Assembly: GCA_015680905.1 (NCBI GenBank)
Contig: JADFTS010000115.1
Span: 29,252-93,251, forward strand
Origin: Coptis chinensis
Taxonomy: Eukaryota > Streptophyta > Magnoliopsida > Ranunculales > Ranunculaceae
DNA: 64,000 bases
Reading direction: 5' to 3'
Numbering within the stretch: position 1 is the first letter of the stretch; each line of letters opens with the position of its first letter. Both the position numbers and the translations under genes were made by a program. Below the pieces are notes generated by a model that was not told where the DNA came from, made no database searches, and saw nothing but the letters and a program-made list of their open reading frames with translations. Below, piece after piece: positions 14,315-56,870 of the stretch.

Positions 14315-14601
14315 TGTTAGAATTAAACCGATTTGGAGGGAATATCACACTGACTTAACACTAACTTAATATGTATTGAATTATTGAGAGAATGAGATAG
14401 ATAAAATGCTTATTCATTGAGGTAAGTCTAAATAGGAAGAGGCTACCTTTATATACAACTAGGTAACCTCCTTTCCAAGATAAAGGATTATCAGGATAAG
14501 TATCAGATAGAGGGTTATCAGGATAAACACCAGATAGAGGGTTATCAAGATAAACACAGATCAATGGTGGGCATCCATATAAGCCCATGGATTTCATAAC
14601 A
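14315..14601 (-). repeat. 3' LTR of the copia element
   Basis: The LTR contains two to three tandem copies of a ~28-bp motif (GGTTATCAGGATAAACACC) at 14483-14565, shared with the other LTR. A TATATA stretch lies near the middle. Terminal dinucleotides are TG and CA. Confidence 0.9.
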
Positions 14602-18633: not shown

Positions 18634-18897
18634 CTTAGAACTTCAGGTTCTTAAAAAAAATAGATCTTGGAACTTTAGGTTCCTAAAAATTCGACCTTAG
18701 AACTTCTGGTTCCTAAAAATTAGATCTTGGAACGCCAGGTTCCTAAAAATAATAGATCTTAGAACTTCAAGTTTCTAAAAAAAAATAGATTTTGGAACTT
18801 CGGGTTCCTAACAATTTAATTCTTGGAACTTCAGGTTCCTAAAAAAATAGATCTTGGAACTTTGGGTTCCAAATATATCGTAGAACTTTAGGGTCTA
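18634..18897. repeat. ~30-bp tandem repeat in the copia leader, built on GGAAC-N5-GTTCC
   Basis: About nine imperfect copies of a 28-34-bp unit of the form CTTGGAACTTCAGGTTCCTAAAAA follow each other, and a detached copy lies at about 18500. Each unit contains a short inverted repeat, GGAAC and GTTCC (or AGAAC/GTTCT) around a 5-nt spacer, so leader RNA could fold into a row of small hairpins. The array sits between gag and the 5' LTR. Confidence 0.85.
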
Positions 18898-19867
18898 CAT
18901 CATTGTTCAATAGTATACATAAAAAAAAAATGAAAATGAAAAGAATTGCATGTAATTCTATGTTTTAATCCATCTCACAATATAAAACAAAGAATTGCAT
19001 AGATTTGGTAAGGAATACGATACCTATCCGATTGAAAAATCAGATTACCACGTTTCGCTATTCGATGAGAAATTGGCCCAAGGCCATAAAGAACTGTAAA
19101 ACTGAATCAGCTCTGGACGAATTAGGCTTAAATCCATACACCGTTGGAAACATATTTGAGTTAGCTTTCTAATGCAATAAGCGGATTGCAAAACCGATCA
19201 CCGAGTAGAAAGTTATAACTGTTTTCGTCAGAAGTGTCTTTCTATTCCGAATTTCGAAGCTAATATCATGAGCTGGGTTTTATTAACTTAAGGCCCATAA
19301 TCAATAAAACATATGGGCTTTGACCTTTAAAAGTTATTAGGCCCTTTATCCAGTAAAATATAAAATGTTGTCATCGTCTTCTTCACTGGAATAGCCGACC
19401 ATAAGTTTTTAAAGGAATCACCGAATCAAGTACTTAAAGCTTGATTTAACTTTATCATAATAGATGCATAACATTTAACAACTAGTCATTATAAAGCCCA
19501 ATTAGAAAAAAAAAAATAATAACCATGATGAAATTAAATATTGCATGCTCCATGCCTCTCTAGAAGGTTGTTATCTTGCTTTACAGCATCACAAGTCATA
19601 CCTAAGTATGGCATAGCTAATAAATTGGTATTAACCCTTTTCTTTTATCAAACTAAAAACAAAAGAAAAATTTAGAAGTTGATCCAGGAAATATAAATGA
19701 TACGATGAACATTAGAGCTCTTTACTTCAGCTACCAAGGCACAATGAAATTTAATAGACTTGACCTGGATAATCTATAGTCAATCAGTCCTTACAGTAGA
19801 TCTTATATTTCTTACCACATTTATTTATTTATTAATTTGCATGTTTATTGGTAGATAGGTATTGCAC

Positions 19868-20553
19868 TGGGAGTCAAAATGGCCCTCAAACCCTTAGCCC
19901 GCCCGCTCCGACCCGGCCCATGGGCCAAAAAAACTCTCAAAATTAAGCCCTCATACATTCGTGGGCTGGGCCGACCCGGCCCTCAAGCCTTTGAGGGGAG
20001 GGTATGGGCCTAGACTTCGATACTTAAGCCCTTCCTTAAGCCCTACCTCATTGGGCCCTCAACATTTATTACATATATTTTAATAAAAATTTTACAATAT
20101 ATTTCATTTTAACATTAATATCTTTAAAAATCACTTAAAAAACGTTTATCTATTAAGTTTGCCAACCTTATAATTTCATTATAATATTTTTATGAAATGA
20201 ATTTAAGCGGTCTTAATTGACTAATACAACTTTTAACAAGTTTTTAGTAGTTTGAAAGGTTTAATTGTGAAGTTGCATTCGATTTTATCATTTTTAACTA
20301 ATGTTTCTAAATTTATTTTGTAAATCAAATGTATAACATAAGATATCCGGGCTCTCGCGTTTGGCCCTCAAGGCCGCTCAAGCCTACCGAGAGGGGTTGG
20401 TGCAGTAAAACTTTCGAGATTTAAGCATTGGTCCGACCCAACCCGACCCTCGAAGTAAATGAGGGTAGGGTAGGAGGCGGCCGACCCAAAGCATAATGGG
20501 GCTTCATTGTTTGAGGGTCGGGCCAGCCCGGCCCAGCCCATTTGACACCACTA
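19868..20553. mobile_element. hAT-like MITE nested in the copia leader
   Basis: The two ends are long imperfect inverted repeats rich in GGGCC and CCGGCCC. The left begins TGGGAGTCAAAATGGCCC; the right end, read inward, gives TAGTGGTGTCAAATGGGC. This is the usual start of a common plant hAT MITE group (GTGTCAAA-TGGGC). Flanks are TATTGCAC (19860-19867) and TTTTGCAC (20554-20561), a 7/8 match to an 8-bp duplication. The middle is AT-rich and non-coding. Confidence 0.75.
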
Positions 20554-20933
20554 TTTTGCACAGAGCTTAATTATCGTACCACATGCAGATCATTCATCGA
20601 CTCTCTTGACTGAAAAGCAAAAACACCTCTTATATTACATTACCGGAATTCGGCGCTAAAGACTACCGATAATAGCACCTTCGTCTTCTGTTTTACGCGA
20701 CTCGATTGAAACAAAGCGGTTTAAACATGCACTTACGGTAACAAGCCGAGGAAAAAGGCGTTAACAGTAAAGTTAAATTCAACGGTAAGTAACGAATTTA
20801 ATACCAAAATACGAATTTAAATTCAATAGTATCGATTACGATTCATAATAACAAATTAAACACATACCATTAATCGTAAGTAAAGCACATACCTTTAATC
20901 CAAAGCTAGAGATTATCGTGCTGATAATTTACA

Positions 20934-21220
20934 TGTTAGAATTAAACCAATTTGGAGGGAATATCACACTGACTTAACACTAACTTAATATGTATTGAAT
21001 TATTGAGAGAATGAGATAGATAGAATGCTTATTCATTGAGGTAAGTCTAAATAGGAAGAGGCTACCTTTATATACAACTAGGTAACCTCCTTTCCAAGAT
21101 AAAGGATTATCAGGATAAATACCAGATAGAGGGTTATCATGATAAACACCAAATAGAGGGTTATCAGGATAAACACAGATCAATGGTGGGCATCCATATA
21201 AGCCCACGGATTTCATAACA
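20934..21220 (-). repeat. 5' LTR of the copia element
   Basis: Same length and ends as the LTR at 14315-14601 with about eight differences. As the element lies on the minus strand, this is the transcription-starting copy. Confidence 0.9.
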
Positions 21221-21349
21221 AAACAAAAATAGTATGAACTATAATATTGGCGTTTGGCAAGGAGCAAAATAGAAAAGAAAAATTAATGACGCGATGAATT
21301 TTACTGTAGAGCCTCCGGTTTTCTTTAAAGAAGTAAGATTATAAAATTA

Positions 21350-21375
21350 CTAGCATCATGCACGTGCGTTGCACA
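21350..21375 (-). mobile_element. 3' terminus of a minus-strand Helitron
   Basis: Read on the minus strand, GTGCAACGCAC (stem GTGC/GCAC) is followed by about ten bases and then CTAG at 21353-21350, with T as the next flanking base. Hairpin plus CTRR plus T is the standard Helitron 3' end, and the CACGTGC-rich hairpin is common in plant families. The body should extend to higher coordinates, but I could not find its TC 5' end. Confidence 0.6.
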
Positions 21376-23338
21376 TCTTAACCATATGCCACTGAACCAG
21401 AAAATAAATTTCCTAATAAAAAACAAAGAGGAGGTCATCCTTTCTAATCTTACAATCAAATCATCGAATGAGACCCCCATAAATAATTCAAATTGGAACA
21501 AAAATTAGATATATGACATACCAAGTGAAGACAAAAAGTCAACAAAAGACACACATGAACAATAGGCAAACCAATATCAGAAATTAAATTTTTACATAGA
21601 AGAAATCATAGTTGTTCGCAACATCAAGAAGACATTACCTATTCGAACTTCAAAAATTAAGAGGGAACAAAAATAAATTACACATGAAGCTCTAAACTAT
21701 AATTCCACGCTTGGGACCTTGCAAACAAATCCCTCCTTTAATATTTAGTTCAAACCAACAAAACTTCTCCCCCGCTTGGTTGAAATAAAATCTTGCTCTA
21801 TCAATATGAACTTTCATTAGCTCTCTTTACCCATCCGAAACCTTCCTCGAAAAAACATCTTCGTCACACAACCCAAATTGTGTAAGATCATCTTGTCGAA
21901 AATATAATCTCCCTCTTAAAATACTGTTAAGATAAGTAAAACAATGTTAATGGGTAGAATGGTAGGATTAATATAAGTATTGTTGCAATCAAGTTATACG
22001 GATAGTGACGGATTGAGTGAATCTCATAGGAACAACAATCTTATTGAGAATGCAAGGATAGGGATATGGATAATATGAGATTAGTGACATTTTAGTAAGT
22101 TTTGGGATTTTTTATGAGCTTCCTCCACTCCATGTCAAGCATGAGTCTGGTCATAACACTTTCCAATATTTTATGTGTCTTGCTTTTTACAATGCTTTCA
22201 CCTGTGTCATTCCAACAAAGACATTGATGCTTATGAGATAGCATGCTAATATGTTTGAACTGCACATGTAATAAATTAAGAGAACGTCATTACACGGTTT
22301 AATTATCTTATCACCATATGTCAGAATCTGCTTCCTTGGCCTCCATTTGTTTGCCTGAAATCCAACAAAGCTTTTATAACATTGATACCTGGTACAATAC
22401 TAAACCATTTTCCTTTTTCATCATAGCTTGTACAACATCAATTTCTAGAACTTGAAGTGAATAACTTTATATGTATGATTGTATGGCACACAAATGCTTA
22501 AGACATTGCGACCCTTATGTTTAGTAATGACTCTGGTGTAGCTCTACATGTCCACAGAAAATGCTTCCTAATACCCAGAGCCAAATTTTTCGTTATGCAA
22601 ACAATAACTATAAACACAATGTGTTATAAACCAATGTGTTATCTGTTACAAAGACTCAACAAGTTTATCAGGAAATGAGAGGGAAGAAATTTACAGGAAT
22701 CTTCCACTATAATATAATGATTCTTATGTGCATAAGTTGTGCCCTCATATTTAAACACGGTTGTTTATTGTAAGTAGGACAATTTACAAAATCAGGGGGA
22801 ATGTGTCAAAGAAACACTCCACCTCAGCACGGTTGGTAGATAGTTGTTTCTCGTCATCCCCGAATATCTAACCAACTTTTGAAAAGGAAAAAAGGAAAAT
22901 TAACACGCCCTGAATAAAAATAAACGCTATAAGAACTACTAAATCTGCTAGAACTCTCAAAAAACAAACCAACACCTGACAAAACAATTTCTTTGTATGA
23001 AACACAAACAGTATACCATTCGAAGAATAAACATGAAATACACAAATGAATGAAAGATTGACTATATACTTTCTTATGTTACCGTTACACAAATAAGCAT
23101 CCATAAGCTGAGCACACAAACGACAATCTCCATCCAACACAGTTCTCAAAAAAATTCCTTGAAGACTCTTAGCGTTTCTAAATGACCCATGTTCCAAAAC
23201 AAACCTTCATTAATTCCACTGTCAAATAACTTATTAATCTATAATCACAGCAAATTGCAGAACTACTAAATTGAACACATTACGAAATCTAACTAATATA
23301 TCAAAATACAATTTATTATTATAATGAATTCAAAATTC

Positions 23339-23369
<31 letters not shown>

Positions 23370-23689
23370 AAGACTTTAACTAACTGTTTTTAGAGGAGTA
23401 GGATAGGGCACAGGTGCAACATAATTTTTAGTTTGCAAGTTGTAATGCGGTGAATAAACTTCGAGTGCTAGCACCAACACACCTATCCCCAAATACATCA
23501 TTACAGATTAGCCAATAGCCCAATATTTAGGCAAGGAGCAACTCTGGTGCCTACATACCATATATTTTTTCAGTTAATCACATGTCCACTAAATCATTCA
23601 TAGAGTACAGAAGCATAACCAAGGTAAATCAAACTTTATATGTCAAAGGGTGACTTGTTGGTCCATATTTACACTTAATGGTATATATA
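21376..23689. other. Probable body of the minus-strand Helitron; no confident gene
   Basis: Minus-strand coding-like stretches lie at about 23060-23200 (R-T-V-L-D-G-D-C-R-L-C-A-Q-L-M-D-A-Y-L, then an apparent splice donor) and about 22330-22600 (including D-E-K-G-K-W-F-S-I-V-P-G), but I cannot assign them. They look like gene fragments. An A run of about 27 bases lies at 23339-23365. Confidence 0.3.
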
Positions 23690-24224
23690 TCTCTATTAGT
23701 AAAGTACACCATAATTAACCTAACCTTTTAAATTAGACCAACCTTTTATCTACCACTAAATACCCTTGATTAGATATTAAAATAAAATATTCAATGCCTT
23801 TAAAAAAGACTATTCTGTCATTTCAATTTTTATTTCCATTTATACCCTTAAGTTATAACACCATCACAAAGGAGTTTTATGTAAATTCAGGTTGAAAACC
23901 AAATGCACGCACTATATGACTATATGAATTGTACGCCTATATTTATTAGTCATTAATTAAGACTTAAATTACCATAAATACACTAATTCTTTCCCTTTTC
24001 GTCTCCCTCTCAATCTCTACGTATCCCATCTTTTTTTTTGCAATTAGATTGACATACCTATTTTTGAGTTAGGCTACTACGAACGAGGCAACAACTTCTC
24101 TTGAGCAGTTCCATGAATCTGAATGTGAAATTACTCGCTTTTAACTGTTCCTCCATATTTTTTTTATACTTTTATTTTGCTTTCTAACTTTGCAATTTGC
24201 ACTTATACTGCAGAGATACTAGGC

Positions 24225-24951
24225 TTTTAACAATGGAAAACATTATGATTCTTGCTCTGAAGAATCTAATAGCAATTATCAGGTATTTGGATATTATAGC
24301 CCAGCTTCAACTATTTCTTGTGTTGGTGCATCCCTGTTAAATTCAGATGCAGAGAGTTCACCTCGAGGAAATACCCTGGACGTGGAGAACTTCTATTTAT
24401 CACAAAGTTATCAATCAGGTGATCAGGATAAGGAGATAGATCGGCGTAGTCATGGTTCATATGGTTTTTTGGAAGCCAAGGGTTCTCTTGATGCACTCAA
24501 TCTACTAAATGATAGTAATCGGTTTTCCGACACTCTGCCGGGTGGTATGTTATCCCCTTCAGGCCTTGATTGTCAGATAAATGTGAGGATTTTGTCTGGG
24601 AACAAGGAAGCAATAAAAAGAACTCTAAGTTACCGTGCTCCTCAAAGTGATGAATATGCTGCACTGAATCGATGTGAAAATGAGTTTGCATATAATTTAC
24701 ACAGGGAAGCAACTTTTCATGAACCACACTCAATTTACAAGACCACAACATCTCAGCTTGGGAAGATAGCTTCCGAGGAGGTTGAAGATGCCAGTTCAGC
24801 CTCTTCTGAGTTATGTGATTTGGACGACACCAATTTGGAGATCAAGTTTGAAGGAAAGCATGCTTTCAGCAATCCCTTTATAGTGCTTCCACAACATTCT
24901 TTGATATTGAGTTTCTCATGCCTTATGAAATCCATGGATGCTGGTCCATAA
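24225..24951 (+). pseudogene. Captured gene fragment, unidentified, one long exon
   Basis: After an acceptor-like TGCAG at about 24215, one frame stays open for about 240 codons. It is Ser/Asp/Glu-rich, with stretches such as S-Y-R-A-P-Q-S-D-E-Y-A-A-L-N and E-V-E-D-A-S-S-A-S-S-E-L-C-D-L-D-D. The composition looks like a disordered region of a plant regulatory protein, but I cannot name the family. No partner exons were found. It lies upstream of the acetyltransferase-like exons in the same Helitron and is most simply a captured fragment. Confidence 0.4.
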
Positions 24952-25227
24952 GGACCTTCAACCAAACGGGAGGCCTTTTCACGGGATAAAGCGCCGAGAA
25001 TCTTCGGATGCTCCTTTCACAGGATAAGCGGCAGGTCAAATGCTGTGATGGGTTTTCAATAATTTCTATGATGTGAGTGGAAGGTTTTTTTTTTTTTTTT
25101 TTTTTTTTTTGCCCTAGAAGTGATTATTACAAGTGGCGGATTTCTATAGTCAGCAACTAGGCAACGTGCCAACGTTAACTTTGAATCCCTGACCAGTGCT
25201 TTATATTCACTTCTCTTTTTCCTTATG

Positions 25228-25718
25228 AAGGGGATACTCGCAGGCTCCTGACGAGCTAACATATGGAGTTGATATGAAAAGGATCAGGTGGTGCGGTATC
25301 CTCCAGGTGTGGTGTCATATACAATTTTATCTTTGAAATTTGTTGGAGATACATTTCTTAAATCAACAAGGTTGTGACTTGCTCATTTATAGAGAATTGC
25401 TCTCTCTTATTTGGTTGTTGCAATTCTGGAAATCTCAACAAAAGATGGACAAGCCAAGGATCTTTTACCTGGATGGCAACCTGCATTGGTGGGCACATTC
25501 TCATTTTATTCCTAAAATAATTATATATTGTTTTTATGTTATTCATATCAGTGGAACGATCTCAACACACCTGCTTTTTTTTTTTGCAATTTGTAGGCTG
25601 GCAGGCGCATGTGTTCTTGTAGTTTACCTGTTAGTTATTTATGGAGCCTATGTTCCTGATTGGCACTTTAGTGTCTACAACACGAAAAGTCCTGATTATG
25701 GGAAGATGTACTTTAAAT
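25228..25718 (+). pseudogene. Heparan-alpha-glucosaminide N-acetyltransferase-like, three exons
   Basis: Plant homologues of the lysosomal acetyltransferase HGSNAT are multi-pass membrane proteins (DUF5009 group) of unclear role. Three exons read: about 25228-25306 (G-Y-S-Q-A-P-D-E-L-T-Y-G-V-D-M-K-R-I-R-W-C-G-I-L-Q), 25393-25488 (R-I-A-L-S-Y-L-V-V-A-I-L-E-I-S) and 25597-25718 (A-C-V-L-V-V-Y-L, then Y-V-P-D-W-H-F and S-P-D-Y-G-K). These are consecutive exons of the N-terminal half and have intact donor and acceptor sites. The start, and everything after the Y-V-P-D-W segment, including most membrane helices, are absent. A 26-base T run (25085-25110) precedes the first exon. I judge it a captured fragment. 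Confidence 0.75.
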
Positions 25719-28700
25719 GTAAGTAAACTTTCACCCTCACCACATAACACTCCTATAATATTTTATTTTCGCCGCATATAAGTTTTTTAGTTATACTTCA
25801 TTGTTCACCCAACAATGCCCATACTACTTATGAGCAATTTGCTTAGATGACTTAGCTTTGAGCCTATAAACTGCCATTAGATTAAATACTAAGACATCAG
25901 TTGCCTTGCTAATTTGATCCAGAATGCTAAAGCAGTGAATTGCTAAATTATCATAAATCAACTTAGGCATATGTTGCAAATTTTGATTGGTTCGGCTATT
26001 TATTTTATCCAGCATCTTGCACATAATATTTGGTTTCAAGAATGCCCTGGACTATGCCGAGCCTAAGATTTGAGAGTTTGTTTTGTCATTCATTTTTAAT
26101 TGCTTGCTCCATCTAAGGGTGGTGGATCGATCAGCTGCGTCTCAGGGTTATTTCCACATCATGGTGACTCCATCGAACATAAGGTGATTTCCTTTTAGCT
26201 TTGCATTTATGTCGACACTATGACAGCTCAGGTATATGTTTTGCAAGTGTTGGAGTAAGCACCTGCTTTTAGTGTTTTTCAAGGACTTCCTCTTAAATTT
26301 CAGGGACTTCCTCTTAAAAAAAATGTCAGTTATACATGTCGTCTTAGGTTTGGATTCAACCTGTATAGGTCATTTAGTTTCCATTAGGAATATCATTCGA
26401 TCTCAAGTCAGTCATAAAGCTTCAGGATGTTTAAGCTCGGCTTTTTTTAGGTTTTGCATGAGAACAACAACATTTTGGTCGTAGCAATAGTAGTTTGTTA
26501 AGGGGCAAATAAAAGTACATTGCCTCTAAAGACATCCATTTTTGGCACTACAAAGTGACAATGTGCTCGCCCAAGTTGAATCAGCCAAGCCTAACAATAA
26601 AGACCAGACAATGGTGAAAAAGACAAGCACACCAACTGAGTAACCCCAGTACATTGTTCACATAAGCCTGCAGCTTTAACTATCAATTTTATACCTGCAA
26701 CTTTCCCCAAGTGTCAAGGGAAAGTCAAGTAACATTTAGAAGCAACATACCTACACTTTATCTCTGCAACAGAAATAACTTTGAAAGACTGATTCCGCAC
26801 TCTGTTAAATTCTTTATCATCTCCTATATAAGTTGCAGCTCTTAATGCATATGTATTTACTCCATGCAGTTTCTATTGCTTCTTACATGCGCATCAAACT
26901 TTTGTTACCTGATTATTTTTCTTCATTATACAAAATTTTAACAATTGTCCTTCCACATAGTAGTTGTCCATTTACAGGTTTGCTTGTGTGGGTCTATTAT
27001 GGTGGAAAGCTCACCAGTTTTGGACAAATATGTTAAATGAATCTTCTTTTCCAATAGCCATCACCTTGCAGAACTACAATGACAATGTTCTCTAATTCCT
27101 CTAATGCCTCAAAGACTTAATATGTTGCATGCCTGCGCTAATTTTAAAAGTTGATGGCGAACAAGGCCATCAAACTTGCTATTGCATCTATTCGTTTCGG
27201 TGCAGCTGAAACAATGCCTAATATCTCAAGTAGGCACAATTTATGATATTCCAATCATTGTCGAGAATCTATCTACTTAAACTGCTCTCAATCAGCAGTT
27301 GAGCTACTAGCCCAATGCTGTTATAGCTGCTGTAAGACCCGTTTCTTATTAATTGTAATGTATATAAATTGTTTTTATCAGGCACTGATTTAACAATGTT
27401 TTTCTTTGGGTTATACAAATAATAGGTCGTTTCTCACTTCCTCTGAAGATTCAAGCGGGAAGAATTGGAACGCAACCTCAAGTGTGCACCCATGCATATA
27501 GCAAATCCAAACTTCAGTGACGGCTGTCTTTGAACGAGCTGCACCCTGTAGCAAGAGGTTAGTCTAATGATGTGTCAGTATATATTTTATATATATTCAA
27601 TAACGCAAGCAAAGGAAACAAACTAATCGATAATTTTATTGAATTTACAATATATATGTTTGCCTTTTAATATTTTATATATGTTCTTAATCCGGATATC
27701 CCAATGCTATACCTTCAATAAAATTGTTAAACATCAAGGAACTTAAATACGTACTTGAATTGACAAAATAACAATTGCTTTTCACCCTCCAATTTGTTGG
27801 CTACACACATACTTTGCTTAATGTCTTTCTGATTTGATATTTTGATTTAATTTGCAGGTAATTCTGACAAGCTAACCAATAGGTTACGTCAATTGGGATG
27901 AAGGTCGAAAGAATCCTGATGTTTACAATATTATCATAAATGATATGCTGAAGAAGGTCCTGGAGACAACAGTTCCAGTTTTTGTTGCTCTAGACAATCG
28001 TAAGAGGGACAAATACATCAATACTACTTACTCTTTTTCAACAAAACAATTAGGCAAAATCTGATGGAATCGATGATGAACGATTTCATAATGCTGGCCC
28101 ATACCGAATCAATATGAGATTTTCTGCAATGGTGGATGGGAATAACCAGGACTAACCTTCCCAACATAGTGTGCCATTTCTTCCCTTTTGAATTCATGTA
28201 AGTTATCTCGGACAATGGAAGCCAAGTAACTATTATGGCCAACTCAGTCTAATAAAAACTAAGTACTTGACTCTGCTCAAGTTTTCATCAGGCGTACGGT
28301 ATTGTCTTCTTTAGAAGTGTTCCAATTGTACTCACACTTGATCTAATCAATCAAATTTATTTATTTAATAGAAATTACTTATTTAAACATTGTGATGAAT
28401 TCAAAAGGATGCATCAAATATGATCCTCTGAATCAAATTTGCTTCCACTTCTAAAGGTGACCCTAATATATGATGTATGCACACAATAATATGTGCAAAA
28501 ACTAACCTCATGGGAGACTTCAATAGCCTCACAATTGGGGTGGGATGCGTCAAGAATAGTCTAACACTAAGAACCTTTTTAATAGCTACTCATATGTGTG
28601 TCGATTACTACATTAAGCTAGCATATCCTAAGTTCCTATTTGGAGATTCTTCCATATCTAAGTCCAAACTATTTGGATATTCATCCATGCCGTTAGGCAA

Positions 28701-29946
28701 TATTAATTTATACATTACTATAAATCCTAAGATGCAACATCAAAATTACTTTTTATATGCTCTAATCAACACTTTTCTTTATCATCTCTATAAATAGCGT
28801 CACCCTCTTGCTATGCTCTAATCAACATTCTGCTCTATCATCTCTATTAGTATTGTACACCCACCTCTAATGCTTCAACAAATTAAAAATTTGGTGTCAT
28901 AACCATTTTCACTAAAGTTATTCTATATTTGAACTCCGTTAGCTACATATGCTCTTTATTTTGACACAAACAATGCAAATTGCTTTATGTCCTTATTTAG
29001 ATAGATTACCTATTACATGGCCAAGTACAAACACTTTACTATCGTTCCATTTTTTGTTCTGCAAACATATACCATCCCAATTAAAACTGATATTTTCAAG
29101 TGTGCAATGTTGGATATTAGTGTGGGTTGGGTGTTAACTAATCTTTTTCATGGTGTTTCATATTATCATTCATTTCTCTATATCCCATTGACTTATAGAA
29201 AACCGTCAGACTTAATAACATCAAGTAAGCATACCACGCAATATTATGTACCAAGTTTGCATACGCAACCGTTACTAAATATATATATATGCTTGCGTTA
29301 TTAATTAGACTATTGGTTTTATAGATTTGTATTGGCATCATCATGTGATAACTGTGAAAATATAGGCAACTTTTAAAATAAACCAATAAGCAAGGGTCGA
29401 AAACACATTATTACAAATTATTAGATTCGCATAACTGCTTCAAAGCAATTAGATTAAATTCTTGCGCGTCCAAAATGTCGGTACAAATTATGGGCTTTCA
29501 ATAATCCCGTCAGGTTAGCCCAACTTAATCCTTCGCCAGCCTCTTAAATGTTTCGTCTCCCACTGTATTCACTTAAGTTCAAGCAAAGGGAATGGAAAGA
29601 CACCAATAAATAAATTAAAAAAAAAAACGGAAACCCTTTGAACCAAAAATGATTACCCACTATCCATAGCTCCTCGCCAATCATAACTCGACGAACCCCA
29701 TTAATGCCCGATACAAAATATGCGTTTGGCTCTCCAGCTTATTTCTACTTTGGGTTGGTTTGTTTTCTATAAATCCCCACGATTTGATTACATTTCCTCA
29801 ACTATTATAGTCTCATTGCTTATTCATTCTCTCCAACTAGACAAAGAAGCTAGGCATGTTATACTTTCTTATTGTGGCCCTCCACTTTTATTTCGGATAT
29901 TTCCTAACTAATTCATTTTCTTTTTTTGGTTATTCCATTATAGGCT
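25719..29946. other. Helitron interior with no identified gene
   Basis: Coding-like snippets occur at about 26120-26185 (ending in a donor), 27130-27330, and 27882-28018 (G-Y-V-N-W-D-E-G-R-K-N-P-D-V-Y-N-I, open for about 45 codons after an acceptor). I cannot assign any. AATAACGCAAGC at 27602 recurs inverted near 29290, which might mark a nested element, but no target duplication supports it. Confidence 0.3.
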
Positions 29947-30450
29947 ATGGCTTATAACAACATTCCAATTTCATTCAAGAACTTACTCGATGAAGCATCC
30001 CGAATCCTAGGTATGCAATTACCATTGTATGGATCGAATTTCGTCAACAGGAGGTATGAGGCATGGGTTGAACTGCAACCTACAAGAATGAGGTTTCTTG
30101 GATTGCCCACACCATACGGGATGATTCGAACAAGTGGCGTGCAAGGCTGGCCGTTAACTACCTTAAGAATACGTTCAAGTCGAAATCATTGACTACAACT
30201 TCCGTGAACTGCGTGAAACACGGGTGCAAGCCGAAACTCTTCAAGAACCAAGTTAATCCAACCGAACCAAATAGCACAAATCACGCGAACCGAACCTGAT
30301 CTTGCAACATCAAATTCAAAATTAAAAGACCCGCTTGCCAATCTAGAGGTTATAATAATGATCAGCGATGATGAAGCCGATGAGGCCAACAATAATGTCG
30401 ACTCGGATTATGAACCCTCCATGGAAATTGAGACGGGGTCCGAAGCTTGA
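29947..30450 (+). pseudogene. Decayed gene fragment, possibly a dsRNA-binding-type domain
   Basis: From an ATG at 29947 the frame reads F-K-N-L-L-D-E-A-S-R-I-L-G-M-Q-L-P-L-Y, which weakly resembles the first helix and loop of a double-stranded-RNA-binding motif. Around 30090 the more protein-like reading moves to another frame, and the end (S-D-D-E-A-D-E-A-N, stop at 30448-30450) is in a third. So it is frameshifted. The domain guess is weak; it could be any short host gene. Confidence 0.3.
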
Positions 30451-30841
30451 TGCTTTTACTTTTAAGTGTTTTTCTTTACTGTTTGTTCTTTTAAGTTTCC
30501 CTAAAGCCTCGATAGTTACTTTCTCGAAGCCTTCATTTGTATCAAAGTCATTTATGGCTATGCTTAGTATTAAGTTGAGTTAAAGAAGTGTTTCATCCTT
30601 CTAATGTTGCTTCATTATTAAGTTTATATATGTGTTTGAAAAAATAACTTGAGCAAATCATGCTTAATTCCCAATTTGCTATGATATTTCCATTACCTTT
30701 GCAACTAATAATGACAGTTTATATGCACACACCCTTTTTTGTGTTCATGGTGATAAGCGTCGGCTATAAATTCAAGCGAGTATATGTGTTCATTTGCCTG
30801 TTTCTACCTTCTTTTGGTATTTACCCTATTCCTATTTATTC

Positions 30842-31169
30842 AGGATATGCTTGACGCAAGGCTGTGTCCTAATGTTCCCACATGCAATTCTCTTCTTAGT
30901 GCATTCCTTCGGGCACACCGGTTCCCTTATGCGTATGAAGTGCTTCAGAGTCTGCTGGTTTTAGGAACTGCAACCTTCTTCTGGACTTACAAGTTGCTTT
31001 TCACCGCTTTAAAGACATCAGAATTCATGGTGATATCATGTTTTGTTGTGAGCTCATAACAACCACTGGCCACGCAGCTCATGCATTTCTGGTGTCCATG
31101 CCAGCTGCCATACTATATGGTCAGAACGTGAAAGATCATTCAAGCAACCTCTTGGATCTAATGCACCCC
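30842..31169 (+). pseudogene. PPR protein fragment (PPR-SMR At1g18900-like)
   Basis: The frame M-L-D-A-R-L-C-P-N-V-P-T-C-N-S-L-L-S-A-F-L-R is a pentatricopeptide-type helix pair. After a small frame break near 31020 the homology continues as M-F-C-C-E-L-I-T-T-T-G-H-A-A-H-A-F-L-V-S-M-P-A-A and then Q-N-V-K-D-H-S-S-N-L-L-D-L-M-H. That combination recalls the C-terminal part of plant PPR-SMR proteins (organellar RNA factors). The rest of the gene is missing and the frame is broken, so it cannot make the normal product. Family assignment is from memory of the motif order. Confidence 0.65.
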
Positions 31170-31354
31170 TTCCAATTGTGACTTCAAGCTCACGAGGGGG
31201 CTCGCCTCCTTGACAAAGTACTCCAAACTGGGGATATATACATGCGTCTGTCATTGAAGGCTAAACCAAAAGACTATAAAGGTTATGGAACCCACACACC
31301 TTCAACAGCTGCAGATGAATGAAGTTATCATCGCAAAGACACCACGATATGCCA

Positions 31355-31555
31355 AGTCAACATTAAGAGGAGTCGCCAAAAAGTGTATCCTTTTCTTCGC
31401 AATAGTTAGGCGGGGATGAAATGAAACTGTGTTTTCTACTTAATGTGATTGATCTAAAAATTGGAGGAGTCACGATCATGGGTGATAGAGGGACTGGAAA
31501 ATCAACCACAGTGCGGTCCTTAGTGGACTTACTTCATGAAATTAAGGTTGTTTAA
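31355..31555 (+). pseudogene. Mg-chelatase subunit I (CHLI) fragment with the Walker A motif
   Basis: CHLI is the AAA+ ATPase of magnesium chelatase in chloroplast chlorophyll synthesis. From about 31412 the frame reads D-E-M-K-L-C-F-L-L-N-V-I-D and then G-D-R-G-T-G-K-S-T-T-V-R-S-L-V-D-L-L, which includes the Walker A ATP-binding loop and is near identical to the plant protein. The preceding V-Y-P-F and A-I-V elements are recognisable at 31383-31410 but offset by single-base indels. A stop follows I-K-V-V at 31553-31555, where the normal protein continues. Only about 65 of the usual 400-plus residues are here. Confidence 0.85.
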
Positions 31556-31767
31556 GAAACTGGCCGATGATGGCGTCGTCCCCATAGACAAACTCATACC
31601 TAAGACCATCAATGAAGGTTAGGTTCAATTCTTTTCTCTTTATGAGTACATAATAAGGTCCACACAGACTACTATTAAGAAAAATATGAGCATACTACCA
31701 AAGTCTGCCGTTGTAGTGCTTTCGTGTTCTTCACAAGTCAAGAACACCGGGCCGATAGCAGATCTTT

Positions 31768-31985
31768 GAAATTCACAAGAGCACCTACAACTCAATCATG
31801 AAGAGTGATATTGATATCGAACAGATTTGTATGGGAACGAACTTTGTTCTTAGTGGTGGATCTACTATGTTCCTTGGCATTCTGATCTGAAGAGCGGGGA
31901 GATCATTGCACTTGCACCAAAGCATGACGATTAAAGTAGCTGCACCTCCTAAGTTAAATTATCGTGAATGGAGGCTAACAACTTT
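31768..31985 (+). pseudogene. Actin fragment, C-terminal region
   Basis: The frame [19 protein letters not shown] matches the actin stretch around residue 280, followed by [10 protein letters not shown], the conserved nucleotide-site loop. After a stop and frame breaks the homology resumes as I-A-L-A-P and M-T-I-K-V-A-A-P-P, matching the ALAPSS and KIKVVAPPE segments of actin, to about 31985. It is a short, frameshifted, non-functional piece lying 0.2 kb after the CHLI fragment. Confidence 0.82.
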
Positions 31986-32443
31986 GCCAAATCGCGTGGC
32001 ATCTATTGCTTCCAAGAGAGTACGACTGTACAACTCAAGCTTTTCAGAATTTTGAGGTAAGCATATGCATTTGTTAATTTTCTAATATGTGGTCCGGTGC
32101 ATGCGGGCCGATCTTGTGAGAAGTTTACCTTCCGCAGAAATGGAATGACTACTATGGTCCTTTTGAAGTAGTTATTGTAGATGCAACTGACGTGGGTCTT
32201 TTCGACTTGATGTTGCAACCCCTAAGCCAGTTGATTTTACAGAATAAACAAAACAATGCCAAAGAAAAATAAATGATAGAGAGGAGGTATTTAAGAAAAA
32301 AACTCACGAAAAGAGCGACACGGAACACATTGTTGCAAAAGGTATGGTGGCTGCCATGCTGCTGGATGGATGAACTTGATGGATGAGTCCTGGGAGGGTT
32401 TAGATAATGATAGAATGTAAGTGAGTTTTAAAAATGATCAAAT

Positions 32444-32835
32444 ATGGACGTCACTGAAGTTGCTCTCCAAGTACTCGAAGCTTTTTGTACCAGTTTGGTC
32501 ATATGGTGGTGCCCCTTGGTTCGTTGTAGAACTACCCAGCTTATCTTCAACGGAACCTTACACATTGTAGATGTCAACTGATTTCTTATTAACTTTCAGC
32601 TTAGAACGGATCTGACGTCAAGTGCTATTTGTCACTGCAACGATCCAGATACGGTTTGAGGAAAGTATCCGCATCATTTTCAACTGCTATGAATGTCACT
32701 TAAATTGATCTCCACGTCCCCGCAGCGTTTTTATCCATATTGGTCAGTTAGTGGCGGCACTTGGTTTGGCGCAGAAAATCCCATTTTAGCTCATGGGGGA
32801 GCTTCTAATTTAAAATGTCGACTGATTTCAGCAGA
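32444..32835 (+). repeat. Diverged duplication of a ~145-bp coding-like segment
   Basis: The segment starting ATGGACGTCACTGAAGTTG (about 32444-32595) recurs in diverged form from ATGAATGTCACTTAAATTG (about 32689-32835), offset by about 245 bp. Both contain a GTCA..TGGTGG/GTGGCGG..CTTGGTT core that reads as W-S-x-x-G-G-x-x-W-F. I do not recognise the source protein. It is probably another captured fragment with an internal protein repeat. Confidence 0.4.
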
Positions 32836-33840
32836 TGTTTAGCATTAGAGGTCTTTTCCTAGAATTATCCGTACAAATGGAGCTTGGAGTGAGATGGATG
32901 GGCAAGGGAAGGGGGCTCAAACGAGGTTCATAAGTCCATAGACAACACTTGCTATGAGTTATTCTTCTTCGGCAGCGTCAACTTAAGAAACCTCTCCAGG
33001 TGTTAGACCTGAAAGCACTCTAACTTAGACGGCCTACCGGTCCGGTCAATCTTCTTAGTTGGGCTCAGCCCTTGCTTATGATGAATATGATGTTGGATTT
33101 GCCTTTTATAAAGCCTCACCAGTAGCTTATCGTTCTAAATAAGATCAAGGGACTTACGTGAAGATGAGAAGAAAGGGTTATTAAAAAGTACATTTCAGTC
33201 AATAGCTTTATCGGATTAATTTCAGGACTGTCTAAACTCCTAAGTATTATTTGTTTGTGTTACAGCCTTCACACTACCGTTCAAGTTCAATCCCGCAAGG
33301 TTCATACTGAACTTAAAATAGCAAGCTATGGGTGAAATTGATACAAAATCAATTGAATCGGTTCAGGATGCACTTTCTTTGTTTGGGCCGGACAAATGAT
33401 CAAAGACAGCATAGGTCAAAAATCACTACTGAGGTACAATTTACAAAGTTTAATGTGAATTCATGGTTAACACTTGGTTGGACCTATATAATTAGACCAT
33501 TAATGTGCTATTATTGTGGCTGGTTCCACCTTGATGTTGGTCTACCCAATATATTCAGATGTTGTTTAATGATTAATGATTTGAGCCAATTGATTTTCCT
33601 CATTTTTGGGGTCGGATGAGGTCTTAGAATCGGGGAGCTCCCCGCTCAATGACTTAGCCAACGGAGTAACTATATATGAATATCGTTATTTTAATTGAAT
33701 AACTATATATGAAAATGTTAAAAGCTGCAATCGACTTCGATTATGGAGAAATGGGCGGGAGTTAGCTGGTTAAGAGAATCGGCCAGCAATTAGCTTAAGC
33801 TTCAATTAGTGATCTGCCTTTTCCAGCCCAAAACGGTTAG

Positions 33841-34266
33841 CCAATGTCGTATGATGTTGATGTAGTCAAAAGTATAATGGAAGAATTTGTATTGCAGGAA
33901 CAAAACCTAAAGATTGATCCTCCGCTGAATGAAGAGATGCAGGTTATTAAAAGCTTAAAATTTATGCCAACTACTTCCAATCTTACAGTTGCCAACTTAG
34001 TTGACGGATATCTTGCTGAAATTGTAAGGGACCCAAATCTACCTCTGTCAATGTTTTTTGACCTTGCTGAGATGGTCTCGAGCTTCTCAAGGCCAGCTCA
34101 TGACGGACTTTATCGTGCTATTCAACGCAAATTTTTTATTTCTCCTACTGAAAACTGCCTTCATATTAATTGGTGGTCAAGTGAAAGACTGTTAATTATT
34201 TCTCACCTTCCTCTATCTTTCTTGAAACTCCATCTGCAAGAAGTGGAGGTAAGAGACTGTTTCTAA
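33841..34266 (+). pseudogene. NPH3-family (BTB-NPH3) protein fragment fused to unrelated sequence
   Basis: NPH3/RPT2-like proteins are plant phototropin-signalling adaptors. The frame from 33844 reads D-V-D-V-V-K-S-I-M-E-E-F-V-L-Q-E-Q, then V-A-N-L-V-D-G-Y-L-A-E-I-V-R-D-P-N-L and L-A-E-M, ending D-G-L-Y-R-A-I-Q. These are conserved signatures inside the NPH3 domain. From about 34130 the family sequence (normally a Lys/Arg-rich run and C-R-L-M-D) is replaced by unrelated residues, and the frame stops at 34264-34266. The frame stays open across the junction for about 45 more codons, so a chimeric peptide is possible in principle. BTB and C-terminal parts are absent. Confidence 0.75.
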
Positions 34267-34789
34267 TCGTATTTGAACTCTGAAGAATGGGGAGCACATC
34301 ACACAACACAACAGGAAAACCTATAAGATGCAAAGGTTAGACTTCTCTCTAACTCTTCACTCAAATTCAAGCCAGTACGGGTTCTTTCATAATTGAGTAA
34401 TAATATGAGTTTATAAAAGTGCAGCTGCAATAGGTATAAAGGCAAGGGATCCTCTGTTTATAGAAGAGATTGAAGTAGCTCCACCTAAAGCTTATGAAGT
34501 TCGGATCAAAATACTTTGTACATCTCTTATACATAGTATCAAAATCTTTTAGAGCGTAGTATCAAAAAATGAACAGGAAAAATAGTCATATTAGTCCTTT
34601 ACTTTTGGCTTTTACCTCTCATATACAACTGTAGCTTCTGACTTTTAATTAATCATTCAATCTTATTAATGTCCTCAATTCAAGTTATTTTGAGCCTATA
34701 TGGTTTCGAGTTTCATTTAAATTCGTCCTTTACCATGTTTTTATGAGACAAAATTTTAGAATATCTACTTCTGTAGCTGATTCAATTTG

Positions 34790-34816
34790 ACGCCAAAAGG
34801 CGTGCACATATGCTAG
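34790..34816 (+). mobile_element. Helitron 3' terminus: hairpin plus CTAG
   Basis: A perfect stem ACGCC/GGCGT around AAAA, then GCACATATG, then CTAG followed by T. The last bases resemble the minus-strand Helitron end at 21350 (GTGCA..ATGCTAGT in both), which suggests related families. Confidence 0.75.
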
Positions 34817-36800
34817 TATATATAAAGGAAAACCATTCACATATTACAAAAGGCCAAAATCTAACTACACCAACTCATATATATAAAGGAAACCATTCAT
34901 ATATTGTTCCAGTTTCAGTTTTGAACTGAAAATTGTTAAAGACTCCATTACCTGTTCAAATAGATTAATTATTTACCGATGTTGAATACACATTTAAGCC
35001 ACTAATGGGTATACTCCTATATAATAATCTTGTTAAAGTTTCCAATCCCAAGTACCAAATATCAGTCAAAGATACCAATTGTAAAACAGAAATAAACATG
35101 ATACCAATTACAAAACAGAAAGTGTCAGAAACAATACCTGACTGGACTCACTGGTTGGAGGATTACATCCCCATAGACTTCCACTATTTTCTTCAATTAA
35201 ACGAACATTTCCTTTAAGATCTAAACTCTCATTTCTGCTTAAGCAAGGAAGTAAATGGCAATTGTTGCTGTATAAACCCATTAACATCCATTCCTCCGTT
35301 CACCCCATTTTCCAAATCAACAGAGAAGCTTCGGAGCTACTTACAGCAAAAAAAATAGACCTCCTATCTCTAATGTTTTTCTTGAATCGCTACACCCATG
35401 AATCTTTGTTTAGTTTAATAATTCTTGTTCACTATGTATATAGCAATTGCGTCAGACCACCGAACTGAAAATTATAAATCAATCAATCACACCACATCAA
35501 ATAAAAACATATAGGCGGACGAAGAAGGAGACCGCATAGAGAGAGAAAGGGTTTATTTCATAAATCAAATTCAATAAGCTTCCACAATCAAAATCACCAA
35601 ATAGCAGTTATACACAATCCCGTTAACAAACTGACAACTCTTGAGCAGATTAATATGATAGAAATAGAGATGGAGAGGAGAGAAAGCTTGAGCAGAGAGA
35701 CAAACCCTAGAGACGAAAAGAGGAAAAACCGAGAAGTGTAGAGAAATTTCTGGTAAGAGCGAAATGACAAAACTGCCATCATTTGTTAGGTGAGAAATGA
35801 CAAAAATGCCCCTGTGACGTACATGAAAACCACTATTCATCAACCCCCATATTTTTCTAATATAGGGTTTGTGCAGTAAGATTTCTGAATGGATTCAGTA
35901 TCAGAAGCATTATGCTCAGACATGAAGTGATATTTTGTTTAAGCGAGAAAATAAATTCACTGCAACATCTCAAATTGTTATCTCTATAATGACCACACCT
36001 TAGACATAATAGACATTCTAGCAATAGTGGTAACCACTAACCAGGGTTTGCTATTCAAGATCAAGGGGGCAGGGGTGTTTAACTGACGAAGAATGGAAAG
36101 TGGTTAATTGCGGAAAAGCTGAAAGGTGGTGGGCATGTGTGATATCTTTAGGGGGATATCGGAAGGTCGTGTAGATCAATGGGTGAAGATGAAGGTTATC
36201 TCTGACAGTTTGGTTTTGGCCACGTATGCACATATGCACACCCCAATCCAATTGATTCTATTTTGTAATTTGAAAGTGTTGTGTCTACAAACGCTCTAGA
36301 TGCGCTGTAGACATTGGGAATTTCCAGAGTTTGGTGCTTTTAACGTCTTTGGCTCCCACTCCGCTCCCTCGCCTCACACTTTACACTTTGGTTGCTCTTG
36401 GCTCCGACACCACATGTAAGCAACTGACTATTATTCCTTTAATGAATAGTCACTCACTTTACCATGATCCTAACATAGAGTTTGTGCCTTGTAAATATAC
36501 ATCCAAGTTTAGTGCACGGGATGTGAATTGCGAGTCCAAGATAATGAGACTCCTCCTGTGGTTGCAATTCAGATAGCCATGCAAAGAACTTCAGATTAGT
36601 CACTAAATCCTCTCGTGGCATTGCCGTACCAAAGTTCTAAGTTGGGCTTGAGAATCTTAGGGCCCAAATTGGGTCGGGCTTGGATTATAGATATTGGAAC
36701 TTGGGCTGGGCTGCAAATCAAAATCATATTAGTCGCTCAATTTTAGAAAGATAATACAATGGAAAATCCGAGATGAATGAAAAAAAATCCCATAAGACAA
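34817..36800. other. Intergenic region upstream of the plastid-protein gene
   Basis: No confident gene. On the minus strand 35690-35730 contains CTCTAGGGTTTGTCTCTCTG, which resembles a plant 5' leader, and 35120-35330 reads weakly coding-like, but no family is visible. Open frames on both strands are short. Confidence 0.35.
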
Positions 36801-38511
36801 ATGGCATTAACATACTCTACTAGCTCGGTGATCAATCCCAACACATTTCAAACCTTCCCCAAACATCCATCACCTCTTTCCTTCCAAACCCAACTTCCCA
36901 CTCACACCATTTCTCTCAAGCACACTTACAGTTACAGACACTTTTCACTAAAACCCAAAGCCACTTTAGACCAAGAAGTTGTCCAAGAAGAACCAGAGAC
37001 TAGTAAGGTGAGTCCTCAGTAATGTTCTTGTTGAACTTTTTTAATATTTGTAGCTGTTGAATATAGTGAAGTTGGCTTGTGTCAGGTTGATGTGGAAGAG
37101 AGTGTGAAAGTGCTAAAAAATGCAGCTAAGACAAGAAAAGTTCCTGCAGAGGAAGTTCTTGCTGCTTTGGGTGTGATCAAGAAGGTGAAAATTGACCCTT
37201 CGGGGTTTCTTGAAACACTTTGTGGAACTGAATCTCCTGGACGGACATGGATGCTTATCTTTACTACTCAGGTTTACTTGCCTATGACACTTTTGAGTTG
37301 ATTACTAAATTTTAATCTTATGTTTAACTAATGTTTGAAACTGAGTGCACTCATGAAATCCAGTTGAAATGTTGAATTAGGAATGCTAACCAAATTATTT
37401 AAGTACTTTGTATATCTACCAAGGTGAAAAATTGGCTTAGCTGATTTGTGGATATTTTGTAGGATGGACTAAAGCGTGGTAGCTATTTCCCAATAACTGC
37501 GATTCAACGATTCGATGCAGCTGTAAGCATTTATTTTTTGTGAAGAAGGTTATAAATGCAGTTTGTTATTGTTGCTAAGAAATTTGTTCTTGCTGTTTAG
37601 TTGGTTATATTTTATGATGCTATTCTATTATATAAGTGAATGTTTTTCAATTAGGGGGCGTCATATTGATTATTGATTCACTACATTGTCAATTTATAGA
37701 TTTTGTCTTGAGAATTATGTCTTCTATTGTCTTCCTCTGAATTGTATGGAAGATAGTTGTAACAATAGAGTTGCCTGAAGTTATCGTTTAAACTTTAAAG
37801 TATGTTAAGTTCAAGTGTATACAGATAATCAACTTTCGGGGAAAGCTATTAAAGCAACAGGGAAATGAATTGCACACATATCAGTTATCACCTAACTAAA
37901 ATACACTTTGGTCTACTTCTTGGATTCCAAGGACAAAAAATGTCTTTAGTAGAACAAAGAGGAGGGCTTGAGGTTGTCTATAGTCTATACTCTGATGAGA
38001 GAATCTCCACACCTGGCCTCCTGAAGCTACTGTTGCAACATCTATTATTGTTGAAACCCTTATACCAGTGTAGGTAATTTGCCACACCCTCCTGAAGCTA
38101 CAGTTGCAACATCTACTTTGTTGTTGAAACCCTTATACCTGGTGTAGGCAATTTGCTTAGTTTATATACAGCAGTTTGCTGCAATTGTAACTTCTGGTGT
38201 TTATGACCCTTTCTTTGGATTAACAGGGAATGAGGAATGAGAATGGAGTGTATCTAGGTCCCTTTGGATGCTTGACATTTGAAGGAAAGTTTTCATGGAA
38301 AAATAGAATATTGGCATTCAGATACGAGTCTATTCGCATAAAGGTTGGGCCGTTTGGTCCGCTCCAGATAAGCTTGGGACAGAGCCAAGATAGTGAACCA
38401 AGTACCAAGGACCCCTTCTTCATCTGGTTTTACATTGACGAAGAAATAGCTATCGCCCAAGGCAAAGGTGGAGGAACAGCATTCTGGTGTCGTTGTCGCC
38501 GTGCTACATAG
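36801..38511 (+). CDS. Plastid-targeted PAP/fibrillin-like conserved protein, four exons
   Basis: A complete gene of 245 codons plus stop. Exons are 36801-37007, 37086-37271, 37463-37522 and 38227-38511, all in phase 0 with GT-AG borders. The first ~60 residues are Ser/Thr/Pro/His-rich with few acids, ending K-P-K-A-T, as in a chloroplast transit peptide. The mature part has V-E-E-S-V-K-V-L-K-N-A-A-K-T-R-K, then S-P-G-R-T-W-M-L-I-F, Y-F-P-I-T-A-I-Q-R-F-D-A-A, G-V-Y-L-G-P-F-G-C-L-T-F-E-G and D-P-F-F-I-W-F-Y-I-D-E-E-I-A, ending in F-W-C-R-C-R-R. This is a highly conserved plant plastid protein; the beta-rich region resembles plastid-lipid-associated (fibrillin) proteins, but I am not sure of that superfamily link and its biochemical role is unknown to me. 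ATG at 36777 in the same frame is an alternative start adding eight residues; 36801 begins the better transit peptide. Confidence 0.85.
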
Positions 38512-39237
38512 TTATCTTCAGTCATTGAATTGAGTTTTATACACAGTATTTCCAATGTATATTCGTAATATTACGTGTACTTCTCAGACCTCATACATTT
38601 GTATACACAGCATCCACGTTGAAGAACTTGAACAATTAGTGTACTTTCTTACTCTTCTACAGGTAAACAATATAATGCTCCTCAAAGAATTTAGTAGTAG
38701 CAATCCTTTTTGTGCACCAATCCTCTGTAAACCAGACTTCTTACTTCCTCTAGTTTCCTAAATTGATAGCCAGCTGCAAATTCATCACTCTTTGTACAGC
38801 GCAATCAATGTCACACCTGTCTTATTTTTAATGTCAAACTACCTAAAGTTGGAATAATTAGTGATGGATATTTTGTTTGTGGAAATAATACGATACTACT
38901 AGTATACTGCGTGGCAGTGGGGAGTGAGCGGAGCTGCGGCGGAGGGAGAGAGTTGGGTGATGCGGGGGGAGAGAGAGAGGTGGGAGAAGGAAAAAGGTAT
39001 TTGGGAGAAATAAGAGAGAAAATGAGGACAGACAGACAGAAACCAACCAAGTTGGTTTTTGTCTCGCATAGCCCCTTCTCCCAAAATCGTTAGCTTCGCT
39101 CACTCGATTACGTATTCAATTTGGATTTCTAGATTCTCACCACGTTCTCCACCGTTTACGCAGCTACTTGTTGGTTCTCGTTTTTAAACAAGACAAAAGT
39201 GTTAGGTGAGCCGCCGTAGTTCTCCATTTCCATGTGA
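38512..39237. other. Intergenic region between plastid gene and MATE gene
   Basis: A purine-rich stretch at 38900-39030 (GGAGGGAGAGAG-type) lies 0.35-0.5 kb ahead of the MATE start and may be promoter or leader sequence. No gene is seen. Confidence 0.4.
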
Positions 39238-39317
39238 ATGAAGACGACTTCAGTCAGAGTTATATGATTAAATATTGATGAAGACGACTTCAGTCAGAGT
39301 TATATGATTAAATATTG
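39238..39317. repeat. 40-bp perfect tandem duplication ahead of the MATE gene
   Basis: ATGAAGACGACTTCAGTCAG and the following 20 bases occur twice head to tail (39238-39277 and 39278-39317), 67 bp upstream of the MATE start codon. It is probably in the 5' leader or core promoter. Each copy contains an ATG, so transcripts covering it would carry two upstream starts. Confidence 0.85.
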
Positions 39318-39383
39318 TGATCAGATGACTAAGTAAGGATAAAAATATATAGAAGAGATCAACAGGCCCAGGAGAGAGAGAGA

Positions 39384-42300
39384 ATGGAAGAGGGGTTGTT
39401 GTTGAAGGAGAGGGAAGAGGAGAGAAATGTGTTAACATGGGATGTAGTGAAAGAGGAAGTGAAGAAGATTGGTTATCTAGCAGGACCGATGGTTGCAGTT
39501 ACCTTATCTCAGTTCTTGTTGCAACTTATTTCCATGATGATGGTTGGACATCTGGGCGAACTCGCACTTTCTAGTGCTGCTATTGCTACCTCTCTTACCA
39601 GTGTTACTGGTTTCAGCTTTCTTGTAAGTTCATCTTTCTCAATTTTGACTTTCTTCGTATTAAAAACTCTTCATATATTCATCATTGTTCTCAAATATAC
39701 TAAACTCAAAAAGAATATAAGTACGCATTGATGATTGTCTCAGTTGGCGAATCACTGGTTCCACCATTAAGATCTCTATCAAAGTAGCTGCAAATCCGCA
39801 ACTTTTAGTCGTGTAGTTTTGAAATGACCAAAGTGTACCGTTGAATGTATTTGCAGTTTCTATGATATAATGTTGGTGGTGGAACCATAGCCCTTACTAA
39901 ATTTTCTAACTGGAAGAGCAGAATTTGGTCACTTTTGCAGAGTAACCCAGCATTGTGATACAGACATAAATTTCTATAGTGATTTGATTCACCAACATTC
40001 ATACATTCACCCCCATGGGAAAAGTTTGAAAAATGCATAATAATTGGCCAAGTTTGCGTCCTGAGGAATATGTTTGAGTTGTGCATAAGTGACTGAATGT
40101 TTTGAATGTCAAGTAGCTAGGAATGGCAGGTGCACTAGAGACACTATGCGGTCAAGCTTATGGAGCGCAGCAATACCAAAAGCTTGGGAATTATATGTAC
40201 AGCGCTGCAATCTGTCTTATATTGCTTTGTATCCCTTTGTCTATTATTTGGGTGAACATGGGGAAGTTACTTACTTTCATAGGCCAAGACCCTCTAATTT
40301 CACTTGAAGCTGGCAAATATGCGGCGTGGTTGATTCCTGCATTATTTGCTTATGCAACTCTTCAATCACAAATGAGATACTTACAGTCTCAAAGTTTGAT
40401 CCTTCCAATGCTTTTAAGCTCCTTTGCAGCACTCTGCATCCATATTCCTGTATGTTGGTTCTTAGTATATAAGTCAGCATTGAGAACAGTTGGAGCTGCA
40501 CTATCAATTGGTATAGCATATTGGTTGAACGTTATCATCTTGGCATTGTACATCAAGTACTCCTCATCCTGTGAGAAGACACGTGTATCTCTGTCAAAGG
40601 ATGCACTCAAAGGTATCGGCGAGTTCTTACGCCTTGCAGTGCCTTCGACTATAATGGTCTGGTAAATTTCAGTTACTGCTATTTTCTTTTTCCCAATTTT
40701 TATGAACTAGCTTTATACATGTAACCTATCCACGAGCTTTATCTATTCCTAAACCCCTATTGTTTTCTTGTGGCAGTCTGGAGTGGTGGTCGTTTGAGTT
40801 GCTAATCTTGATGTCTGGTCTTCTACCAAATCCACAGGTCGAAACTTCGGTGTTGTCTGTATGGTAATTAAATTTCGTGCTGCTTTTATATTTGCAATTT
40901 GATATATACTGAGGATACCTGCGCATAGGCTTAAGCAGAGAGTTTGGATTAGTTGGTTGTAATAACAGGACTAGTTCTGGTTTTTCACTGCATGAAACAC
41001 CATGTGCCCACACTCCCTTTCGACTGGGAGTCCTCTGGTAATGTGGGGCTCCAGGCTAAAGGGACATGGCGTTTCATCCAGTAGATAACCTGCTGATCTC
41101 AACTGATAATTAACTGTCTCCAGCTGACCTTTTTTTTTTAATTTTTTTTTTCTCTCTCTCTCTCTCTCAACAGCTTGACGACCATTTCATTTCTTTACGC
41201 CATACCATTTGGAGTTGGAGCTGCTGCAAGGTTGGTTCTACACTAGCTTCCTTCTGCAAAAATTCATCTTTTTCGAAGTACAGTCTTGCATTTGTTAATT
41301 GTTTTTACATGCAGTTTTTCACCTGTTATTAGAAATTGCTTTCTATACTATGTAGTACTCGAGTTGCAAATGAATTGGGAGCTGGGAAACCAAAGGCAGC
41401 TCGTGTGGCGGTATTCGTTGTAATGCTCCTTGCAGCAACAGAGACTACAATTGTTAGTTCATCTCTTTTCTTGAGTCGCCACATTTTGGGATACGCGTAC
41501 AGTAATGAGAAGGAGGTGGCAGATTATGTCACAGCAATGGTTCCTTTAATTTGTATCTCAGTTATTTTGGACAGCCTACAAGGAACGCTTTCAGGTTAGA
41601 TACAAGTCGCAGAGGTCAGTGCTTGACCATCTTTTCTTCTCCCAAGAAAGTTTTGACGGGGTCTATGTAATGTTCAGGTATTGCTAGAGGAACTGGCTGG
41701 CAGCATCTGGGTGCCTATGTCAACCTTGGAGCATTTTATCTTGTGGGGATCCCCATAGCTGTTTTGTTGAGTTTCCGTCAACATTTAGGAGGAAGGGGAC
41801 TGTGGATTGGAATACTGATGGGGTCTGTTGTACAAGTAACTCTGCTCTCATTGATAACAGGTCTTACAAATTGGCAACAACAGGTCTGTAACACATCCTT
41901 GTAGTTGTGATACTAAATGAATTTGACCTTTAAACTGGTACCTTTATACGGTGATAGTTGTCTGTTTTAATTGCAAGTCTAGAAAAATACTTAAATGTTG
42001 AACTTCAGTCCTGATTGAGTGCTTGTTTGAGATTTTGAATACAACTTAGGGAGGTATTTTCTTACTTAATTTAGATAAGAGATGAAAGATTAAGGATTGT
42101 TTAACTTATCTACTTATCTGGAATTAAATTTTTAACAAGTTGAGCAAGTTTCAAAACTTTGGATCAGTACAAGCTACCCGATGTTATCTACCTGACTACC
42201 ATACGTACAGACTCTACTGTCGAAAAGGAACAATTGAAGCTTTCTCCTATTAAGGGGCATTGAAAGCACATTTGATCTTTACTTGGAATGTCCTCATTCT

Positions 42301-56271: not shown

Positions 56272-56284
56272 GGTTAGTTTAATG

Positions 56285-56869: not shown

Positions 56870-56870
56870 G

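Follow-up and report, generated by a model that had tools for sequence, protein, structure and literature searches.

The window analysed here, a 64,000-nt stretch of Coptis chinensis DNA, holds between positions 23690 and 34816 an interval of ~11.1 kb in which degenerate pieces of unrelated host genes lie on the plus strand between ends of the Helitron type (Table 1). Several other features share the window. A 290-bp direct repeat, 97% identical between its copies (14312-14601 and 20931-21220), flanks a minus-strand Copia-type reverse transcriptase and likely marks a young LTR retrotransposon. The plus strand also carries two similar MATE transporter genes or gene copies (39333-42800 and 50747-53973), whose DNA is ~73-84% alike. 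DDE endonuclease and Myb/SANT-like domains adjoin one another on the minus strand (46212-47687), an arrangement that we take to be that of PIF/Harbinger elements. Finally, two tandem arrays of a similar ~55-base unit (54434-55752 and 56869-57702) are separated by sequence that includes a reverse-transcriptase-like piece (56198-56608).

Table 1. Termini, flanks and gene pieces of the interval, in window coordinates
Feature	Position	Strand	Evidence
5′ flank, TATATATA adjoining the element	23682..23689	.	13/6045 A|T positions in the window preceded by TATATATA
Outer 5′ terminus, Helitron-type, TCTCTATTAGTAAAGTACACC after A	23690..23710	+	Motif inspection and approximate-match scan
Two HGSNAT-like pieces (first-pass annotation), GTAAGT splice-donor-like at end of second	25393..25723	+	By-eye resemblance
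Internal 5′ terminus, same family as outer end, TCTCTATTAGTATTGTACACC after A	28841..28861	+	19/21 identical to the 23690 end; 0 in 100 shuffles
PPR-like fragment, weak	30868..31011	+	PPR_2 E 0.0036 and 0.0074, under Pfam curated cut-off
CHLI (magnesium chelatase subunit I) fragment with P-loop	31406..31555	+	PDB ChlI E 2.3e-16; focused search 2.5e-15
Actin fragment, one in-frame stop	31759..31974	+	PDB pollen actin E 9.1e-10; focused search 7e-12
NPH3-domain fragment, three in-frame stops in first third	33703..34125	+	Pfam PF03000 E 1.3e-31, 110.6 bits
Alcohol dehydrogenase (ADH) N-terminal fragment	34409..34537	+	PDB ADH E 9.9e-07; focused search 2.3e-07
Hairpin, 5-bp stem, 4-nt loop, ACGCC-AAAA-GGCGT	34790..34803	+	-7.4 kcal/mol, z -3.03
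Terminal CTAG, then T	34813..34816	+	Sequence inspection
3′ flank, TATATATA adjoining the element	34817..34824	.	10/6045 A|T positions in the window followed by TATATATA

Gene pieces were sought by six-frame searches of Pfam over 23690-34900 and of PDB over 23690-34816, and focused searches agreed with them. A first-pass annotation of this DNA had named five donor genes. Three of these, CHLI, actin and NPH3, were recovered on the plus strand as it had claimed. Its PPR piece drew weak matches, both below the Pfam curated cut-off, and its HGSNAT piece matched nothing in Pfam or in PDB at E up to 10; HGSNAT is thus a presumed parent, assigned on resemblance by eye. The alcohol dehydrogenase fragment is new, as the annotation did not name this gene. 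In-frame stops fall inside or at the end of all four confirmed matches (CHLI, actin, NPH3 and ADH): the longer CHLI match contains three, the ADH frame terminates at one, and the NPH3 frame stays open between 33841 and 34263. The PPR, CHLI and actin pieces also appear frameshifted when their frames are read against what we take to be the parent genes. By eye, three pieces have splice-like borders: the NPH3 open frame ends in GTAAGA, the HGSNAT-like piece lies before GTAAGT, and a CAG rich in pyrimidines precedes the start of the PPR piece. These borders suggest that the pieces were captured from genomic DNA and not from cDNA. The six-frame Pfam scan of 23690-34900 found no transposase or RepHel, so the element is non-autonomous at most.

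The annotation had placed every piece on the plus strand, and this is where CHLI, actin, NPH3 and ADH were all found. Nothing convincing lies on the minus strand of the interval, which returned only ERV14 (PDB, E 0.23) and RavA_C (Pfam, E 0.093). The latter was judged a chance or redundant match, together with the weak Pfam matches to PHF12_MRG_bd (E 0.019), CPCFC (0.054) and PPR_3 (0.12) and four AAA families (E 0.036-0.27) over the CHLI P-loop. In maize, captured pieces tend to lie in the element's own orientation. A one-strand arrangement has a two-sided chance of 0.06 for five pieces and 0.03 for six, and the argument that it offers for a Helitron is modest. Counts of stop-to-stop open reading frames of at least 60 amino acids were rejected as a sign of the coding strand (19 plus versus 21 minus; shuffle means 15.9 and 11.5). 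Just upstream of the interval, on the minus strand, lies a degenerate phytoene/squalene-synthase-like fragment (21773-21916) that is perhaps part of another gene-carrying insertion. It scored a Pfam E of 0.008 in a scan of 18800-23689 and, when a shorter query was used, 0.00011, which still falls below the curated cut-off. Gene pieces of this degenerate kind thus also occur outside the interval. Downstream, the 4.5 kb of flank from 34817 to 39300 yielded no Pfam family in six frames.

The left end begins with TCTCTATTAG at 23690 after an A at 23689, just as first described, and thus has the TC start inserted after A that is expected of a Helitron. When up to three mismatches are allowed, this 21-base end occurs twice in the window versus not at all in 100 shuffles. 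The second occurrence, at 28841, is absent from the first-pass annotation. The pair is beyond a chance match. Similarity between the two ends stops ~21 bases into the element, as expected if the terminus alone is conserved. The 28841 end is part of a local tandem repeat that is imperfect and has one copy more like a TATA box. A literature search returned no Helitron with a TCTCTATTAG terminus, and neither the 5′ nor the 3′ end had an exact match in collections of viral and prokaryote sequences, as expected for plant DNA.

The right end is likewise as first described, with a 5-bp-stem hairpin, 9 nt, CTAG ending at 34816 and then a T. This is the CTRR-before-T arrangement of Helitrons, in which a hairpin lies ~10-12 nt upstream; here it lies 9 nt before CTAG and 13 nt before the end. 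The fold of the last 40 bases (-7.4 kcal/mol, z -3.03) was equalled in none of 200 shuffles. Under strict criteria, the 3′ motif occurs at two plus-strand sites in the window (9103 and 34816) and at none on the minus strand, and looser criteria give five and two. Since the strict motif also arises by chance (a mean of 0.53 per 64-kb strand in 30 shuffles), the 3′ structure is weaker evidence than the pair of 5′ ends.

Both outer ends adjoin (TA)4. The TA run is 8 before 23690 and 8 after 34816 versus 1 before 28841, and thus the outer pair fits a single target. The flanks therefore favour the pairing of 23690 with 34816, with the caveat that the ends may have been picked in the first place using their TA-rich flanks. 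The presence of TATATATA on both sides fits insertion inside a (TA)n tract and is equally readable as an 8-bp target duplication. Terminal inverted repeats are absent, as in Helitrons: the terminal 60 bases score 15 versus a mean of 18.3 and a 95th percentile of 26 for 500 random pairs. A Pack-MULE or other inverted-repeat element was rejected on these grounds. The 3′ flank opens with TATATATAAAGGAAAACCATTCA (34817-34844), of which a near copy lies ~60 bases on (34878-34905).

The internal 5′ end bears directly on whether the interval is one unit. All five database-supported pieces (PPR, CHLI, actin, NPH3 and ADH) lie 3′ of 28841. Plus-frame searches of the 23690-28840 half returned nothing from Pfam or NCBIfam, nor was there a match among the PDB plus-frame matches listed (the best 60 of 64 and the best 60 of 121). 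A same-family 5′ end at this position makes Helitron identity stronger and a single 11-kb unit less certain: the interval is either a single Helitron that has two 5′ termini, or a 6-kb Helitron lying within or next to a second one. The single gene-collecting 11-kb element of the first-pass annotation thus stands in its outer termini, its matching TA flanks and its CHLI, actin and NPH3 pieces, whereas its PPR piece is weak, its HGSNAT piece is not confirmed and its unity is less sure than claimed.

If the interval holds two Helitrons, the gene collection would belong to a 6.0-kb element (28841-34816), a relative, separate or broken, would begin at 23690 and would have a 3′ end of its own that has been lost or has escaped recognition, and the 11-kb unit would never have moved whole. 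The same-family end preceded by A at 28841 speaks for this arrangement, as does the location of five out of five database-supported pieces within 28841-34816; maize helAs also have a tendency to insert near or inside one another (PMC3288121). However, a TA run of 1 before 28841 and of 8 after 34816 are unlike halves of one target, and no strict 3′ end for the first element was found within 23690-28840. We consider two independent elements rather unlikely. Still more improbable is an old intergenic region, unrelated to any Helitron unit, in which gene pieces that arrived on several occasions, through a transposon of another type or as repair filler, have decayed and Helitron-like ends have arisen by chance or through unrelated insertions. 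The phytoene-synthase-like piece just outside, on the opposite strand, would suit such a region, as would a 3′ motif that is not rare in the window and TATATATA flanks that could be a target duplication. Nonetheless, chance does not explain the pair of 5′ ends, a terminal inverted repeat is absent, the pieces inside lie on one strand, and the 4.5 kb beyond 34816 are without a Pfam match in six frames.

The interval is best read as a non-autonomous Helitron that has collected gene pieces, given the paired termini, the (TA)4 on both sides, the several unrelated plus-strand pieces and searches that found no transposase. More specifically, 23690-34816 is probably one such Helitron, inserted into a (TA)n tract, with DNA that is a mosaic of degenerate pieces from host genes. 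That it is of a known, ordinary gene-collecting type is credible, with the internal 5′ terminus at 28841 as an extra point of interest.

Sweeping up broken pieces of host genes is a well-known habit of rolling-circle elements. For the single Helitron favoured here, copying would have begun at the 5′ end at 23690 and ended at the hairpin and CTAG at 34816, and the element would have been moved by a relative's transposase. Earlier copies may have read past their own 3′ end into neighbouring genes and so gained pieces. Such gain by 3′ read-through appears the most likely route for this element. Going by the literature, the successive capture that the first-pass annotation proposed is plausible; the chimeric RNA that it also proposed is putative. 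The 5′ end at 28841 would be left over from an earlier and smaller Helitron (28841-34816), swept up when copying started from a same-family 5′ end further upstream. We tentatively propose that a Helitron may here have captured a member of its own family: copying from 23690 would have crossed host sequence and a resident, gene-loaded 6-kb element and used the latter's 3′ terminator. If true, a new 5′ end thereby acquired an entire collection of gene pieces at a single stroke.

The general picture of Helitron gene collection, well documented in maize, is unchanged by this finding. A long multi-gene Helitron with two 5′ termini in a eudicot-like genome would nonetheless be a useful case for cargo transfer between elements. 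Among the closest parallels are the non-autonomous helAs of maize, which share the TC start after A, the 3′ hairpin with CTAG before T, several gene pieces per element and, in some of them, internal pseudo 5′ termini (PMC3288121); this likeness is a motif-level comparison of the termini and not an alignment. Multiple termini occur in 28.7% of helAs and multiple 5′ termini in 17.6%; true and pseudo 5′ ends are not clearly different, nested insertion is proposed as their origin, and stepwise gain of gene pieces is inferred (PMC3288121). Unlike most helAs, ~80% of which measure 0.1-10 kb (PMC3288121), the Coptis element reaches ~11.1 kb, and unlike their host, the window looks eudicot, an impression based on its gene and repeat content. 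Among eudicots, gene capture is reported to be sparse in Arabidopsis, with five events in 565 elements (PMC2575219). The gene-capturing Helitrons of Brassica napus resemble the Coptis element by description in their eudicot host and captured pieces; 35.25% of them carry two or more pieces, with a mean captured length of 230 bp (PMC11986588). Finally, the ends recall Helraiser and Helibat, which have TC/CTAG termini and a 3′ hairpin. Work on Helraiser identifies the hairpin as a termination signal and demonstrates read-through capture, and Helraiser encodes the RepHel that was not found in the Coptis element (PMC4778049).
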